Positions 13,997 through 35,206 of a DNA stretch of 64,000 nt are shown piece by piece. The notes beneath the pieces were generated by a model that saw only the letters and a list, made by a program, of their open reading frames with translations, ran no database searches and had not been told where the DNA came from. The stretch lies in contig JAOAPE010000011.1 in assembly GCA_025462725.1 (NCBI GenBank), positions 62,001-126,000 of the forward strand, read 5' to 3'. A program made the translations under genes and the position numbers. Each line of letters begins with the position of its first letter. The first letter of the stretch is position 1. This stretch comes from Terriglobales bacterium (GTDB taxonomy: Bacteria > Acidobacteriota > Terriglobia > Terriglobales > Acidobacteriaceae).

Positions 13997-14262
13997 GGGC
14001 CCAGTACCATCCCGACCAGTTTTACGACCTAGAAATCCAGCGCAACAGCAACGAACAAAGCTACTTGCGGCCTTTGCCATCTTACGTCTTAGTACGTCCG
14101 TATACGCCGAAGAACGCCAAAGTTTCTGCTTCCAGAGAACTTATCTAAGTTGTTTGCATCTATGTACATGTCTCATTAGCACGGCAGGTCTTCAGCGCTC
14201 CGTGCACGGGGCCGCCGCATCGCTGGTCATTGACGGTCTTATACATAGAGGGGAACGCATTC
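13997..14262. other. Intergenic region before the epimerase unit
   Basis: 266 bases without a gene I can support. No terminator with a clear stem and T tract and no convincing promoter pair could be picked by eye; a promoter for the 14263-18067 unit must lie here or upstream. Confidence 0.5.
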
Positions 14263-15345
14263 ATGCAGGGAAACGGTCACAGTCGCTCCGTCTTAATATT
14301 CGGAGGGGCAGGGTTTATTGGTTCCAATTGGGCGTCTCGGTTGCTGGATCAAAGTGAGACCAAGGTACACATTTTCGACAATCTCTCGCGAGAAGGCTCC
14401 CGCCACAACCTTGAATGGCTTGAGAAGAAAGCCAAAAAGTCGCGTCGACTCGAGATAACCATTGGTGATGTCCGCAATGCCAAACTGGTGGAGCGCGCAG
14501 TCCGCAGCGCAACTGAGATCTACCAACTCGCCGCACAGGTCGCGGTAACAACTTCCGTCAAAGATCCCCGTTTGGATTTCGAAGTCAACCTCTTGGGAAC
14601 GCTGAACGTGCTGGAAGCCGCTCGTATGCACGGACGCCGTCCGTTCCTGCTTTTTACTTCCACCAACAAAGTTTACGGTGCCTGCGGGGAGTCGCAGGAG
14701 AAATTGGAGAAAGGAACTTCGGAGGCCCAGCCTCTCGATTTCCATTCTCCGTACGGATGCTCGAAGGGAGCGGCCGACCAATACGTTCGCGACTACTCCC
14801 GCATCTACGGCCTTCCTACAATAGTGTTGCGGATGTCCTGCATCGCTGGCCCGCGACAGTTCGGCAATGAGGACCAAGGATGGCTCGCGCACTTTCTCTA
14901 CTCAGCGCTTCAAGAGATTCCGGTAACGATCTATGGCGATGGGCTTCAGGTCCGTGACGTTCTGAACGTCAACGATCTGCTGAATGCTTTCGAGGCAGTC
15001 CGCGAGAAGCTGCCCGTGACTGCCGGCTCGGTTTACAACATCGGCGGAGGTCCGGCCAACGCCGAATCTCTGCTCGGCGTGATTGAGCGCATCAAGACAC
15101 TCACGGGTAAGCGTCTCGAATATACGAAGGCGAAGGGTCGTCCCGGCGATCAGCAGCTCTATGTTACCGATTTCAGCAAACTGCACAATGACACCGGATG
15201 GACGCCAGCGATCGATCTCACCGGAACAATGGAATCGATTTATCAATGGTGGAGATCGAACCGTGACCTGCTGCCATCGCATGCTGCAAAGGTTCCGGAA
15301 CGCACGTTCGGAATGTTGCAACCAGAACCATTGAGGGCAGCATAA
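14263..15345 (+). CDS. SDR-family epimerase, CDP-paratose 2-epimerase-like
   Basis: A 360-residue extended short-chain dehydrogenase/reductase acting on nucleotide sugars. The NAD-binding motif is GGAGFIG (residues 14-20), the catalytic pair is in SPYGCSKG, and the motifs FTSTNKVYG and GPRQFGNEDQGW resemble CDP-paratose 2-epimerases, whose substrate is a CDP-dideoxysugar. No genes for CDP-dideoxysugar synthesis are nearby, so the true substrate may differ. ATG 14263 is preferred over TTG 14230 because GAGGGG precedes it. Its stop overlaps the radical SAM start (TAATG), and a UDP-glucose dehydrogenase follows, so the three act together on a sugar nucleotide, probably for a surface glycan. Confidence 0.88.
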   Translation: MQGNGHSRSVLIFGGAGFIGSNWASRLLDQSETKVHIFDNLSREGSRHNLEWLEKKAKKSRRLEITIGDVRNAKLVERAVRSATEIYQLAAQVAVTTSVKDPRLDFEVNLLGTLNVLEAARMHGRRPFLLFTSTNKVYGACGESQEKLEKGTSEAQPLDFHSPYGCSKGAADQYVRDYSRIYGLPTIVLRMSCIAGPRQFGNEDQGWLAHFLYSALQEIPVTIYGDGLQVRDVLNVNDLLNAFEAVREKLPVTAGSVYNIGGGPANAESLLGVIERIKTLTGKRLEYTKAKGRPGDQQLYVTDFSKLHNDTGWTPAIDLTGTMESIYQWWRSNRDLLPSHAAKVPERTFGMLQPEPLRAA

Positions 15346-16664
15346 TGAGGTATGCCCTCGTAAATCCCAATTGGACTTTTACAGGCTCAACGTATTTCGG
15401 CTGTCAGGAGCCACACTTCCCATTGGAACTGCTCTTTGCCAGCGACAAGATCCGCGAAGCGGGACACGAGTCTCTGGTCATCGACGCACAAATCAATGCT
15501 CTCTCCATAGAAGAAGTTCGGCAACGGGTGGATGACTTCGCTCCGGATTTCATGGTGATTCCCACAGCGCCTTCGTACCTGTTCTGGCGGTGTCCGCAAC
15601 CTGAGTTGCGAGTTCCGCGGGAGTGGTTTGATGGGCTCACACACAAGGCTGTCAAGAAAGCACTGAAAGTTGCGATTGGTCCACACTCGTCGGCGACGCC
15701 GTCCGCTGCCCTCCGAAAGCTTGATTGCGATATCGTCATGCGCGGCGAGCCCGATCAGACGCTCGCGCAGCTTGCTTCAAAGCGTTGGCAAGATATCGAC
15801 GGATGTTGCTGGCGTGAAGAATCGGGAGAGGAACATCTCAGCGCGTCGCTCGGCGTAGCGCCAATGAAGACGCTCGGAGCGCTCGATTTCGCGGACTATC
15901 CAGTGGAGCTACATTCACATCGCCACCATGTCTTCAACGGCAGCGGTCGCGGAGCAGAATTGGAGTTTGCCCGCGGTTGCCCGTGGGCTTGCACCTTCTG
16001 CAACAAGACCCTTTTCCGGAACTCATATCGCGAGCGCGAAATCTCTGCAGTCCTAGCAGAGATAGACGCATTGATTTCCCGCGGGGTGGATTACATCTAC
16101 TTCATTGACGAGATATTCGGTGTGGGCAAGAACGTCTTGAAGCTGCTCGAAGGTATTGCCGAGCGCAACGTCACGATCGGTTTTCAGAGCCGTATCGATC
16201 TCTGGAACGAAGGAACGCTGGACTTGCTGGGCCGTGCTCGCTGCATCTCCTTTGAGTGCGGAATCGAATCTGTCACCGAACAAGGACGCGACGAACTCAA
16301 CAAGAACTGCCGCATGGACACGGAGCGCTTGAGCGAGCTTCTGATCTACGCTCGCACTCGGATTCCATGGGTGCAGGCCAATCTCATCCTCAACGAGCAT
16401 GACGACCGCGAGGTCATTCGTCTGTGGCAGGAGCGCATGAAAGCGCATGGAGTTTGGGTGAGTGAGCCGGTTCCGATGTTCCCGTTCCCGGGCAGTCCGC
16501 TTTATCTGAAAACCTTCGGCGCTCCACCGGACGATTTTGCCTGGGAGCGCGCTCACCGCGACTACCGCGCAAGATTCGACGACAAAGGTTACAGCGACAT
16601 TCAAGAACAAAGGCCACTCATGATCGAGGAACTCGAGAGCGTGGGCCAGGGGAAGGCATCGTAA
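15345..16664 (+). CDS. B12-binding-domain radical SAM protein
   Basis: A 439-residue enzyme with an N-terminal cobalamin-binding-like Rossmann region (about residues 1-150; IVMRGEPDQTLAQL is typical) and a radical SAM core. The iron-sulfur cluster motif CX3CX2C is Cys212, Cys216 and Cys219 in RGCPWACTFCNK. The motifs YIYFIDEIFGVGKN and FECGIES follow as in the Elp3/MiaB-like fold of this class. Such enzymes methylate or rearrange unreactive carbons. The context, directly coupled to an SDR epimerase and two bases before a UDP-glucose dehydrogenase, suggests a sugar-nucleotide or glycan substrate. I do not see the DXHXXG B12-ligating motif, so cobalamin may bind without a histidine ligand. The precise reaction is unknown. 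Confidence 0.87.
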   Translation: MRYALVNPNWTFTGSTYFGCQEPHFPLELLFASDKIREAGHESLVIDAQINALSIEEVRQRVDDFAPDFMVIPTAPSYLFWRCPQPELRVPREWFDGLTHKAVKKALKVAIGPHSSATPSAALRKLDCDIVMRGEPDQTLAQLASKRWQDIDGCCWREESGEEHLSASLGVAPMKTLGALDFADYPVELHSHRHHVFNGSGRGAELEFARGCPWACTFCNKTLFRNSYREREISAVLAEIDALISRGVDYIYFIDEIFGVGKNVLKLLEGIAERNVTIGFQSRIDLWNEGTLDLLGRARCISFECGIESVTEQGRDELNKNCRMDTERLSELLIYARTRIPWVQANLILNEHDDREVIRLWQERMKAHGVWVSEPVPMFPFPGSPLYLKTFGAPPDDFAWERAHRDYRARFDDKGYSDIQEQRPLMIEELESVGQGKAS

Positions 16665-16666
16665 CA

Positions 16667-18067
16667 ATGAATATCGCAATCATTGGGTCTGGCTATGTGG
16701 GGTTGGTGGCAGCAGCAGCATTCGCAGAGATCGGACACAACGTCACCTGCGTGGACAATGACGCCTCCAAAGTAGAGGCACTCAATCGGGGCGAGACGCT
16801 GATCCATGAGCGATTTCTTCCTGAGTTGCTCGCCCGACATCGCGGCGAACGCTTGGTGTTCACGCAGAACATTCAGGAAGCCATTCGCTCCAGCTCAGTG
16901 ATTTTCATTGCTGTAGGAACTCCATCTTCAGAGAACGGCGAAGCTGATCTCTCACTGGTCGAAAACGTCGCTTGCGCCATTGCCCGCAATATCAACTCGC
17001 ACAAGATCATCGTGGAAAAGAGCACGGTTCCGGTCTGCACCAGTCAGTGGATATGCCGCGTAATGATGCAGAACGGCGCGCCCGGCGATATGTTCGATGT
17101 AGTCTGCAATCCGGAGTTCTTGCGTGAGGGAACTGCGGTCACTGATTTTCTTTACCCGCACCGGATCGTCATCGGCGCCGATTCCACCCAGGCCGCCGAC
17201 ACTCTTCGCAAGATATACATGCCCCTCGCCGATGGAAGCTATGCGAAGCTGAGCAAAGCCATCCCGCAGCCTGATAACGCCATTGTTCCCACCCGTCTCA
17301 TAGTCACGAGTGCGGAGAGCGCGGAAGTAATCAAGCATGCGTCTAATGCGTTCCTTGCCATGAAAATATCCTTTATCAATGCCGTCGCAAATGTGTGCGA
17401 GAACGTCGGGGCGGATGTGGAAGAAGTCTGTAGAGGGATCGGCAGTGATGCGCGCATCGGAACTGAGTTCCTCAAGCCCGGAATCGGATACGGCGGCTCA
17501 TGTTTTCCAAAAGACCTCACGGCATTCCGCTCCGTCTCATGTGACTCCGGCTATGACTTCCGCCTGCTCGACGAAGTTCGCCGAATCAATGAGGACCAGC
17601 GACACAGGTTCTTGCGGAAAGTCCGCCAGGCGCTCTGGAACCTTCGAGGGAAGCGGCTTGCGGTCCTAGGACTCTCTTATAAAGGTGGCACTGACGACAT
17701 TCGCGAGTCTCCCGCCATCGCCATGATCCACCTCTTGCTGAAGGAAGGCTGCGATATCGTTGCCTATGATCCGGCGGCGATGGAACGCGCAAAAGAAGAG
17801 TTTCCAAACGGCGAAGTGGAGTTTAGCGCCTATTTGTATGACACTGCTGTTAACGCCGATGCAGTTCTTATTCTTACCGATTGGGAAGAGTTTGCCAGCC
17901 TTGACCTGCCGCGATTGCGAAAGGCAATGAAGAATCCCATCATCGTTGACGGACGCAATCTCTATCGTCCCGAGACAATGAACAATAGCGGTTTCACCTA
18001 TTACAGCATCGGACGTAGGCAGAGAGTCGCGCGTCGCTTGGTGCAGCGCTCCAATACAGCCGCCTAA
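16667..18067 (+). CDS. ugd: UDP-glucose 6-dehydrogenase family
   Basis: A 466-residue nucleotide-sugar dehydrogenase that oxidises UDP-glucose (or a related sugar) to the uronic acid with two NAD+. It has the NAD motif MNIAIIGSGYVGLV, the catalytic motif GYGGSCFPKD with Cys279, and the C-terminal GLSYKGGTDDIRESPA. The length fits the UDP-glucose branch of the UDP-Glc/GDP-Man family better than the UDP-HexNAc branch found at 32758. The start lies two bases after the radical SAM stop. It ends 9 bases from the convergent Gly-rich protein gene. Confidence 0.92.
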   Translation: MNIAIIGSGYVGLVAAAAFAEIGHNVTCVDNDASKVEALNRGETLIHERFLPELLARHRGERLVFTQNIQEAIRSSSVIFIAVGTPSSENGEADLSLVENVACAIARNINSHKIIVEKSTVPVCTSQWICRVMMQNGAPGDMFDVVCNPEFLREGTAVTDFLYPHRIVIGADSTQAADTLRKIYMPLADGSYAKLSKAIPQPDNAIVPTRLIVTSAESAEVIKHASNAFLAMKISFINAVANVCENVGADVEEVCRGIGSDARIGTEFLKPGIGYGGSCFPKDLTAFRSVSCDSGYDFRLLDEVRRINEDQRHRFLRKVRQALWNLRGKRLAVLGLSYKGGTDDIRESPAIAMIHLLLKEGCDIVAYDPAAMERAKEEFPNGEVEFSAYLYDTAVNADAVLILTDWEEFASLDLPRLRKAMKNPIIVDGRNLYRPETMNNSGFTYYSIGRRQRVARRLVQRSNTAA

Positions 18068-34243: not shown

Positions 34244-35206
34244 TTATCTCGCGGTGGCGACGGTAGAGCTAACGGTGCGGTACCAAGCGACGGTCTTTTT
34301 CAACCCGTCTTCAAAATTCACGTGCGGGGTGTAGTTCATAGCTTTCTGAGCCAATGAGATGTCTGCGAGTGAGTGTTTGATGTCGCCGGTTCGCTCTGGA
34401 GCGTAGGTGACTTCGCCTTTATAGCCAGTCAAATCTCTCAGGATCTCCACGATCTGATTCAAGGTGATTCGCTTGCCCGTTGCGAGATTCATGCATTTAC
34501 CGGCAACTTGCGAAGCTGGCGCAGTCGCAGCAAGGATGTTGCCAGCCACGACATTATCTATGTATGTGAAGTCACGGCTCTGTTCTCCATCGCCGTAGAT
34601 CGTAGGCGAGTCCCCGCGGAGCATGGCGCTACAGAACTTTGCCAGAACTCCTGAATACTGTGAGGTCGGGTCCTGGTGCGGGCCGAAGACGTTGAAGTAG
34701 CGCAGGGAAACAGTCTCGAGTCCGTACACCCGATAAAAGGACTTCATGTATTGCTCGCCACACAACTTCTGGACGGCATATGGGGAGATGGGGTCGGAAG
34801 GCATGCCTTCGTGCTTAGGAAGTACCGGAGTTTCGCCGTAAGCAGAAGACGAGGCTGCATACACGACCCGCTTCACTTTGGCGTCTCGAGCAGCAACTAG
34901 CAGATTCAGTGTTCCATTGATATTTGCACGGTGGCTCGTGACGGGGTCCACCACAGATTTCGGGACAGAAGGGATGGCCGCTTCATGGAAGATGATGTCC
35001 ACGTCCCGGCATGCATCGCTCAAGGCGGCTTCATCCAGTAGGTCAACCTCACGGAAATCTATCTGCTTCGCTATGTCGCTGAGATTCTCGCGCTTGCCTG
35101 TGGCAAAATTATCAATTCCGCGCACTGAGTCGCCGCGCGTAAGTAGACCGTGAGCCAGCGAAGAGCCGATAAAACCTGCAATGCCTGTGATCAAATACCG
35201 GGCCAT
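34244..35206 (-). CDS. UDP-N-acetylhexosamine 4-epimerase-like SDR
   Basis: A 320-residue extended short-chain dehydrogenase resembling WbpP/VipB, which interconvert UDP-GlcNAc and UDP-GalNAc (or their acids). NAD motif GIAGFIGSS, catalytic serine region AASSSAYGE, the YxxxK pair in ISPYAVQKLCGE, and FNVFGPHQDPTSQYSGV are all typical. It is the last gene of the minus-strand unit kinase-regulator-hypothetical-epimerase (44 bases after the previous stop) and faces the UDP-HexNAc dehydrogenase across the terminator. Both enzymes of one building block thus lie side by side in separate transcripts. Confidence 0.92.
   Translation of the reverse strand: MARYLITGIAGFIGSSLAHGLLTRGDSVRGIDNFATGKRENLSDIAKQIDFREVDLLDEAALSDACRDVDIIFHEAAIPSVPKSVVDPVTSHRANINGTLNLLVAARDAKVKRVVYAASSSAYGETPVLPKHEGMPSDPISPYAVQKLCGEQYMKSFYRVYGLETVSLRYFNVFGPHQDPTSQYSGVLAKFCSAMLRGDSPTIYGDGEQSRDFTYIDNVVAGNILAATAPASQVAGKCMNLATGKRITLNQIVEILRDLTGYKGEVTYAPERTGDIKHSLADISLAQKAMNYTPHVNFEDGLKKTVAWYRTVSSTVATAR

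Follow-up and report, generated by a model that had tools for sequence, protein, structure and literature searches.

Gene organization of the locus

The three genes considered here lie in a stretch of 64,000 nucleotides (the window) from a Terriglobales bacterium of the phylum Acidobacteriota (contig JAOAPE010000011.1, positions 62,001 to 126,000; C51:62001-126000), whose genome comprises 4.33 Mb on 91 contigs. All three are encoded on the forward strand. Gene 1 (14263-15345) encodes a short-chain dehydrogenase/reductase (SDR) of the CDP-tyvelose 2-epimerase type ("TyvE", family F3), as judged from a phmmer comparison with the PDB and from signature motifs. Gene 2 (15345-16664) encodes a B12-binding-domain radical S-adenosylmethionine (SAM) protein, assigned to TIGR04295 (family F2) by NCBIfam and examined as an AlphaFold2 model. 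Gene 3 (16667-18067) is assigned as a UDP-glucose 6-dehydrogenase (UGDH) on the basis of TIGR03026 and three UDPG_MGDP_dh Pfam domains.

The start of gene 1 is taken as the ATG at 14263, the listed open reading frame beginning upstream at a TTG (14230); it is preceded by a ribosome-binding-site-like sequence, AGAGGGGA (14247-14254, forward strand; read by eye only). At the junction of genes 1 and 2, the final A of the TAA stop codon is also the A of the following ATG, a 1-base overlap, and the TAA of gene 2 is separated from the ATG of gene 3 by two bases (ca). Genes 1 and 2 are probably translationally coupled. A scan for promoters and terminators gave no signal clearly exceeding shuffled sequence. 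The initial annotation had described this compact packing and had named an epimerase, a B12-type radical SAM enzyme, and a UDP-glucose dehydrogenase; the open reading frames, the overlap, and the gap are all borne out in the sequence, and the three identities hold against Pfam and NCBIfam.

The encoded enzymes

Gene 1 matches the SDR epimerase families PF01370/PF16363. Its closest structures are the two solved CDP-tyvelose 2-epimerases, 9rl0 (TaTyvE, 256 bits) and 1orr (237 bits), with the third-ranked entry at 142 bits. The segments TSTNK, YGCSK, and EDQGW are retained in gene 1 and its relatives: among 72 epimerase rows, which include several genes fetched twice, YGCSK is present in all, DQGW in 71 (one row is truncated), and T.TN.VYG in 68, the misses being two truncated rows and two rows of one genome. 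TaTyvE from Thermodesulfatator atlanticus is described as having a triad of Thr124, Tyr164, and Lys168, a TNK segment, and a loop from Gly197 to Trp207 that contains Asp204-Gln205 (PMC13098431). Gene 1 keeps the triad, the TNK segment, and the DQGW loop of this enzyme (TyvE, SDR1E) and is predicted to be an SDR of the same type. It differs in that the VAM segment seems to be VAV (by position in the conserved AAQVAVT, not by alignment to TaTyvE), and in that no CDP-dideoxysugar genes adjoin it, its neighbor gene 3 being predicted to make UDP-glucuronate.

The gene 2 product matches the TIGR04295 model ("B12_rSAM_oligo") over positions 1-422 of 422 with 624.6 bits (cut-off 400) and is the sole member above the cut-off in the genome. 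Its nearest named relative, from a Candidatus Angelobacter metagenome-assembled genome (MAG), is 86% identical. A CX3CX2C motif occupies residues 212-219, and C212, C216, and C219 are invariant across 46 sequences. TIGR04295 is an NCBIfam "hypoth_equivalog" with no reaction named; "oligo" in its label presumably denotes an oligosaccharide-type neighborhood with the methyltransferase TIGR04290. The open-access literature searched contains no mention of the TIGR04295 accession or name or of the TIGR04290 accession, and no link to 3-C-methylmannose or to radical SAM/cobalamin/nucleotide-sugar C-methylation.

Gene 3 scores 438 bits against TIGR03026 (cut-off 189.8) and carries all three domains, PF03721, PF00984, and PF03720. 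It resembles UGDHs of the TuaD/AglM type over its full length and in its three domains; its top-scoring model is TuaD (503 bits, under the cut-off of 700). As it stays below both equivalog cut-offs, TuaD and AglM, it is formally only a "nucleotide sugar dehydrogenase, UGDH-like". It is a UGDH by family, and the use of UDP-glucose is predicted.

The usual home of the epimerase-radical SAM pair

A scan of GTDB contigs (genome_contigs) yielded 30 loci encoding relatives of gene 2, whose neighbors were clustered and compared with named cassettes. In 22 of them, an epimerase gene and a radical SAM gene are followed by a glycosyltransferase of family 4 (GT4), one of the two genes being split in L034 and L039. 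The triad with UGDH occurs in three loci (L013, L014, and L015), and two (L019 and L021) hold the pair without UGDH or glycosyltransferases. Among the last three, L020 and L042 are truncated/broken and L035 shows a methyltransferase with the radical SAM gene. L019 and L021 have in common a third gene neighborhood around the pair. Of the 27 loci that contain both an epimerase and a radical SAM gene, 21 have the two overlapping by 1 or 4 bases (starts chosen by script); in the other six they are 3 to 462 bases apart, and two of these involve a split gene. Genes 1 and 2 are, on this comparison of sequences, a conserved unit found elsewhere. The proposal of the initial annotation that all three genes form a unit is therefore upheld for genes 1 and 2, which do recur together in other genomes, whereas gene 3 is an irregular companion. 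UGDH was also considered as a core member of the cassette and rejected: it adjoins the pair in only 3/30 loci and is located elsewhere in the searched relatives with an embedded cassette.

In its fullest form (e.g. L033), the cassette runs from a glycoside hydrolase (GH)-like gene through a second SDR, the epimerase, the radical SAM enzyme, and GT4 to three PF13524-type glycosyltransferases, with a haloacid dehalogenase (HAD) phosphatase, a TIGR04290 methyltransferase, and a nucleotidyltransferase close by. It is distributed over Acidobacteriota, one Desulfarculales MAG, and Alphaproteobacteria; Terriglobus albidus DSM 26559 (L027) is one acidobacterium with the cassette in its embedded form. 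These neighbors place gene 2 in a sugar-nucleotide/glycan context, as had been supposed from the locus itself. SmUxe was considered as the identity of the second SDR, an assignment that is not established. A flippase, a priming transferase, or a polymerase was not seen among the annotated cassette genes, which makes a cytoplasmic oligosaccharide likelier than a secreted polymer, although some flanks hold polysaccharide genes.

Co-occurrence was assessed in 120 genomes, the present one included, with TIGR04295 called at E up to 1e-60; related genomes in this sample are not independent. TIGR04295 is found in 31 genomes and TIGR04290 in 33 (32 above the cut-off and a fragment in G084), five further genomes having TIGR04290 under the cut-off. 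Both families occur together in 29 of the 31 TIGR04295 genomes (G056 and G085 lack the methyltransferase), and the methyltransferase occurs alone in G003, G005, G079, and G083.

Some further observations concern the cassette and its members. In order-level relatives (L089-L094 and L096), a short arrangement is seen, in which the TIGR04290 methyltransferase lies directly upstream of epimerase and radical SAM, or, in L093, precedes the radical SAM gene only; the cassette glycosyltransferases are absent from the fetched stretches of these loci. Two contigs labeled Rhodanobacteraceae (L024) and Verrucomicrobia (L030) carry cassettes whose radical SAM genes group with Acidobacteriaceae rows in the tree; the contigs may be misbinned, or the genes recently transferred. 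The GH-like protein (L017:6823-7758; in the present genome L075:14109-15068) shows LWNEPNN in its N-terminal part, WVTEVG at residues 109-114, and an SWADSFRP-type segment near the C-terminus, with key residues invariant in 14 sequences. Motifs in this order point to a GH-A-type barrel that is circularly permuted. In the AlphaFold2 model of the protein (predicted local distance difference test, pLDDT, 78.8), eight strands alternate with helices; its Foldseek matches are weak and include half-length ones to GH10 and GH128.

Relocation of the pair

In the genome studied here, TIGR04290 (348.5 bits, cut-off 300) is located on another contig, C74, in a block with a GH-like gene, GT4, and three PF13524-type glycosyltransferases, from which epimerase, radical SAM enzyme, and second SDR are all missing. 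A 55% identical homologue of the second SDR resides on C75 without other cassette genes, 2 kb from a 37% identical UGDH-like gene. The block of C74 recurs in G001, G002, G003, and G004, and the main cassette of G035, G033, G041, and G044 consists of methyltransferase, GH, second SDR, GT4, and three glycosyltransferases, again with no epimerase or radical SAM gene; eight relatives in all thus possess a cassette without the pair. The triad is found at a separate locus in G001 (L013), G002 (L015), G004 (L014), G033, G035, and G041, which, with the present genome, makes 7 genomes from 4 genus codes. G035 is assembled as a single contig, with the pairless cassette at 3.87 Mb and the triad at 4.12 Mb, so the separation cannot be put down to a fragmented assembly. 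The detached pair of G044 stands beside a different, divergently transcribed UGDH-like gene (45% identical), and G003 (78% complete) yielded no radical SAM gene. The recurrence of the triad, together with the recurrent overlap, argues against a chance pairing. The locus resembles other members of the family in that gene 2 scores above the cut-off and TIGR04290 is present in the same genome, and differs from them in that the radical SAM and epimerase genes are split off the cassette, with UGDH downstream. As far as gene order and homology can tell, the pair is a detached module that moved away from the cassette and was relocated in front of UGDH.

How often this happened was approached with trees. 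The triad UGDHs did not cluster in a first UGDH tree, in which L167 and L174 were long rows; after rebuilding without L167, L174, L165, L164, L173, and L166, they group with a support of 92/92. The radical SAM tree mildly rejects a single clade of detached copies (approximately unbiased, AU, p 0.042, for a group named only after the first tree had been seen). Of 80 radical SAM rows fetched, 46 entered the alignment, 49 the first tree, and 28 the second, excluding the broken or truncated L020, L034, and L042, repeat fetches, and some further rows. The G044 copy (L052) is ungrouped in the first tree, bears the label "embedded" in the second though detached, and stands outside the AU-constrained rows. 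The UGDH tree favors one relocation and the radical SAM tree two; the triad is compatible with one origin, and two are possible.

It is also conceivable, although rather unlikely, that UGDH is a chance neighbor, i.e. that the pair was inserted before a housekeeping UGDH gene with no functional link. Relatives that have the embedded cassette or the short form do carry UGDH homologues (47-67% identical) at other loci, at most 1.5 kb from a UDP-glucuronate decarboxylase gene in 9 of the 17 genomes searched; the clustering of the triad UGDHs would agree with one accidental event. The AU test leaves room for two relocations to UGDH, the detached pair of G044 adjoins a UGDH-like gene of its own, and decarboxylase genes accompany most of the plasmid cassettes described below, all of which speak for a functional link.

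Plasmid cassettes of Alphaproteobacteria

Among 72,556 plasmid records, nine contain TIGR04295 (tblastn, E up to 1e-40): five from Azospirillum, two from one Bradyrhizobium strain, and one each from Tistrella and a Geminicoccaceae bacterium. The epimerase adjoins the radical SAM gene in 6 of these cassettes, and an inositol-3-phosphate synthase gene is present in 7. An epimerase query matched 176 plasmid records, mostly from Sinorhizobium and Rhizobium, from which 14 distinct cassettes without radical SAM were opened, picked for taxonomic spread; the resulting set of 23 leaves out L193, which nearly duplicates L187, and L198, which has fewer than three glycosyltransferases. UDP-glucuronate decarboxylase is encoded in 18 of the 23 cassettes, namely in all 14 without and in 4/9 with the radical SAM gene.

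A pair of genes for a Zn-dependent dehydrogenase and a Gfo/Idh/MocA oxidoreductase lies in or beside 13 of the 14 radical-SAM-free cassettes, the exception being that of Roseomonas marmotae. None of the 23 cassettes combines this pair with the radical SAM gene; nine have the radical SAM gene only, 13 the dehydrogenase pair only, and one neither (Fisher p 1.2e-5, relatedness ignored). Absence of the pair from the nine refers to the fetched stretches, of which L192 is truncated by the start of its record and has a short upstream flank; L190 does contain an annotated Zn-dependent alcohol dehydrogenase, which starts some 11 kb away and has no Gfo/Idh partner in the stretch. The mutual exclusion suggests that the radical SAM enzyme is replaced by the dehydrogenase pair, perhaps in redox or dehydration chemistry.

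GH-like protein and TyvE-type epimerase form a single fused polypeptide in six plasmid cassettes, those of Tistrella, the Geminicoccaceae bacterium, R. leguminosarum, R. etli IE4771, and Rhizobium N621 and N324 (L181:11956-14004, L186:9950-12004, L188:11014-13056, L196:10026-12068, L197:10014-12056, L199:10026-12068). The N-terminal part of the L181 fusion, taken alone, has no Pfam match. Polysaccharide pyruvyl transferase genes are located beside two plasmid cassettes, and the flanks of several contain DUF1003, Ku/LigD, or sigma-factor genes, which hint at a connection with stress.

The reaction of the radical SAM enzyme

The AlphaFold2 model of gene 2, built from the 46-sequence alignment (pLDDT 90.6), is most similar to the radical SAM methyltransferase TsrM (Z 27.0, 388 residues, 2.8 A), the ring-contracting enzyme OxsB (Z 26.8, 378 residues, 3.1 A), and the sugar diol dehydratase AprD4 (Z 26.8, 379 residues, 3.4 A), followed by MgmA (25.6), CysS (24.8), and TokK (Z 20.4). 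It resembles TsrM, OxsB, and AprD4 nearly over the full length, the first two from residue 1 onward. With TsrM, OxsB, AprD4, MgmA, and CysS, it shares a two-domain architecture over 351-390 residues at 14-19% identity; the match does not give the reaction. The model predicts a cobalamin-fold radical SAM architecture for gene 2. As three enzymes with different reactions tie, the fold search cannot choose among them, and methylation, dehydration, rearrangement, and epimerization are all possible for this architecture. When the family profile was compared with solved chains, AprD4 ranked first (46 bits, radical SAM core only) and MgmA second (42 bits, extending into the cobalamin-fold domain). 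AprD4 works without cobalamin; its own model, NF033070, scores 21.5 bits on gene 2 (cut-off 500). Other NCBIfam matches are led by the oxidative cyclase BchE (81 bits) and include HpnR (66 bits) and further methylases.

The initial annotation expected an unusual carbon modification, for example methylation, of which the latter now stands as one option among several. That gene 2 is a cobalamin-dependent C-methyltransferase yielding a branched (C-methyl) sugar is quite possible, with chances somewhat short of even. The fold matches to TsrM, MgmA, CysS, and TokK (351-388 residues), the relationship to HpnR and other methylases, and the reach of the MgmA match into the cobalamin-fold domain are consistent with it; yet AprD4 and OxsB match as well, the best solved chain and the best other NCBIfam model are AprD4 and BchE, the cassette already holds a separate methyltransferase, and the exclusion of the dehydrogenase pair does not suggest methyl transfer. 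Redox chemistry, epimerization, or dehydration at a sugar carbinol carbon, elsewhere in Alphaproteobacteria the job of the Zn-dependent dehydrogenase and the Gfo/Idh/MocA oxidoreductase, is a more tentative candidate. It would account for the exclusion pattern and for AprD4 as best profile match, tied best by fold, and it has a parallel in 2-deoxystreptamine biosynthesis, where the radical SAM enzyme BtrN replaces a Zn-dehydrogenase. However, 11 of the 13 pair-bearing cassettes stem from Rhizobiaceae and 7 of the 9 others from Azospirillum or one Bradyrhizobium strain, so that few independent events may underlie the exclusion; the products of the two cassette types may simply differ, the truncated L192 weakens the count, and two radical-SAM-free cassettes, those of Roseomonas marmotae and of the acidobacterial genome G005, have no dehydrogenase pair.

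Sugar substrate and proposed pathway

To our knowledge, no member of the acidobacterial cassette has been assayed. TaTyvE is reported to convert UDP-glucose at one sixth of the rate of CDP-glucose (PMC7851689), and to form CDP-xylose from CDP-lyxose at 14 times the speed at which it forms CDP-glucose from CDP-mannose (PMC13098431). Homologues of UDP-glucuronate decarboxylase occur in 11/11 genomes tested, the present genome having two copies (C51 and C83). A search for RfbF, the enzyme that forms CDP-glucose, at E up to 1e-20 gave no match in 6 of 11 genomes that carry the cassette or the short form. In Azospirillum brasilense MTCC4038, a cluster that includes an undecaprenyl-phosphate glucose phosphotransferase contains a TyvE-type epimerase (54%) and, two genes downstream of it, a nucleotide-sugar dehydrogenase, with a decarboxylase 5 kb off. 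Together with the adjacency of UGDH and decarboxylase genes, these points favor a UDP-pentose as inferred feedstock, and the decarboxylases of the plasmid cassettes likewise point to UDP-glucuronate or UDP-xylose. Elsewhere in the window (34244-35206, reverse strand), a further SDR is nearest to WbpP/WbgU-type UDP-N-acetylhexosamine 4-epimerases (278 bits to 1sb8).

The reading that we consider fairly likely is that the pair is a detached, probably coupled module of a widespread oligosaccharide cassette, relocated before UGDH and joined to a proposed UDP-xylose-type pathway. UGDH would make UDP-glucuronate, which a decarboxylase encoded elsewhere in the genome would convert to UDP-xylose. The TyvE-type epimerase would then invert C2 of a nucleoside diphosphate (NDP)-sugar, with UDP-xylose to UDP-lyxose as the favored guess and a hexose as another possibility. 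The radical SAM enzyme would subsequently alter a carbon, either in that sugar or in the glycan, to give a product for use by the glycosyltransferases and the methyltransferase of the cassette.

Several findings weigh against this pathway. The epimerase and the radical SAM enzyme are not obligate partners: in the G005 cassette (L139), the epimerase is directly followed by GT4 and no radical SAM gene was found, and in Azospirillum (L184, L190, and L191) the radical SAM gene has no adjacent epimerase, so the radical SAM enzyme may act on something other than what the epimerase makes. A tblastn search of L139 (G005 C7:100001-120000) detected no radical SAM remnant (best E 0.16), which leaves natural loss or ancestral absence, and the cassette holds no Zn-dehydrogenase and Gfo/Idh pair. 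Five of the nine radical-SAM plasmid cassettes lack a decarboxylase gene, and the adjacency of UGDH may be accidental, given that the triad UGDHs are compatible with one origin. Cobalamin binding by gene 2 is putative, its PF02310 match (E 2e-5) reaching 24.9 bits, under the cut-off of 32.1. Inositol-phosphate synthase, present in 7/9 plasmid cassettes, was not found in 11/11 acidobacterial genomes when searched with an alphaproteobacterial query and no positive control; the two phyla may thus differ in the chemistry of the product. Finally, the present genome encodes RfbF, CDP-glucose 4,6-dehydratase, and RfbH above cut-offs on C70 (L221:12576-15815); the earlier statement that the epimerase has no CDP-dideoxysugar genes with it holds for the vicinity of the three genes and does not extend to the genome, and the epimerase may have a CDP-sugar role.

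These C70 genes and the TyvE signature would fit a gene 1 product that makes CDP-tyvelose from CDP-paratose, its link to the radical SAM enzyme being incidental. This is very improbable, as RfbF was not found in more than half of the cassette genomes searched at the threshold given above and as the association of epimerase and cassette holds in more than one phylum; the CDP-dideoxysugar pathway was set aside as the home of gene 1. In a broader alternative, which appears unlikely, TIGR04295, as a cobalamin-fold enzyme, would perform redox, epimerizing, or deoxygenating chemistry on an NDP-pentose or the growing glycan and would be non-orthologously interchangeable with the Zn-dehydrogenase and Gfo/Idh pair. 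The pathway would be a cytoplasmic one, so far undescribed, that makes a pentose oligosaccharide, on an inositol base in Alphaproteobacteria. Its UDP-glucuronate genes would have been acquired independently, Alphaproteobacteria taking up the decarboxylase and this acidobacterial lineage UGDH.

Implications

The locus is a new arrangement of a catalogued radical SAM family. Few radical enzymes are known to remodel activated sugars, and TIGR04295 is catalogued without a reaction. The cassette is common to Acidobacteria and plasmid-bearing Alphaproteobacteria (e.g. Azospirillum and Bradyrhizobium), and the comparison offers several hooks: a mobile two-gene module, a natural cassette free of radical SAM, the exclusion of the dehydrogenase pair, the GH-epimerase fusion, and the supply genes for UDP-glucuronate/UDP-xylose. 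The exclusion pattern would let genetic complementation discriminate methylation from redox chemistry.

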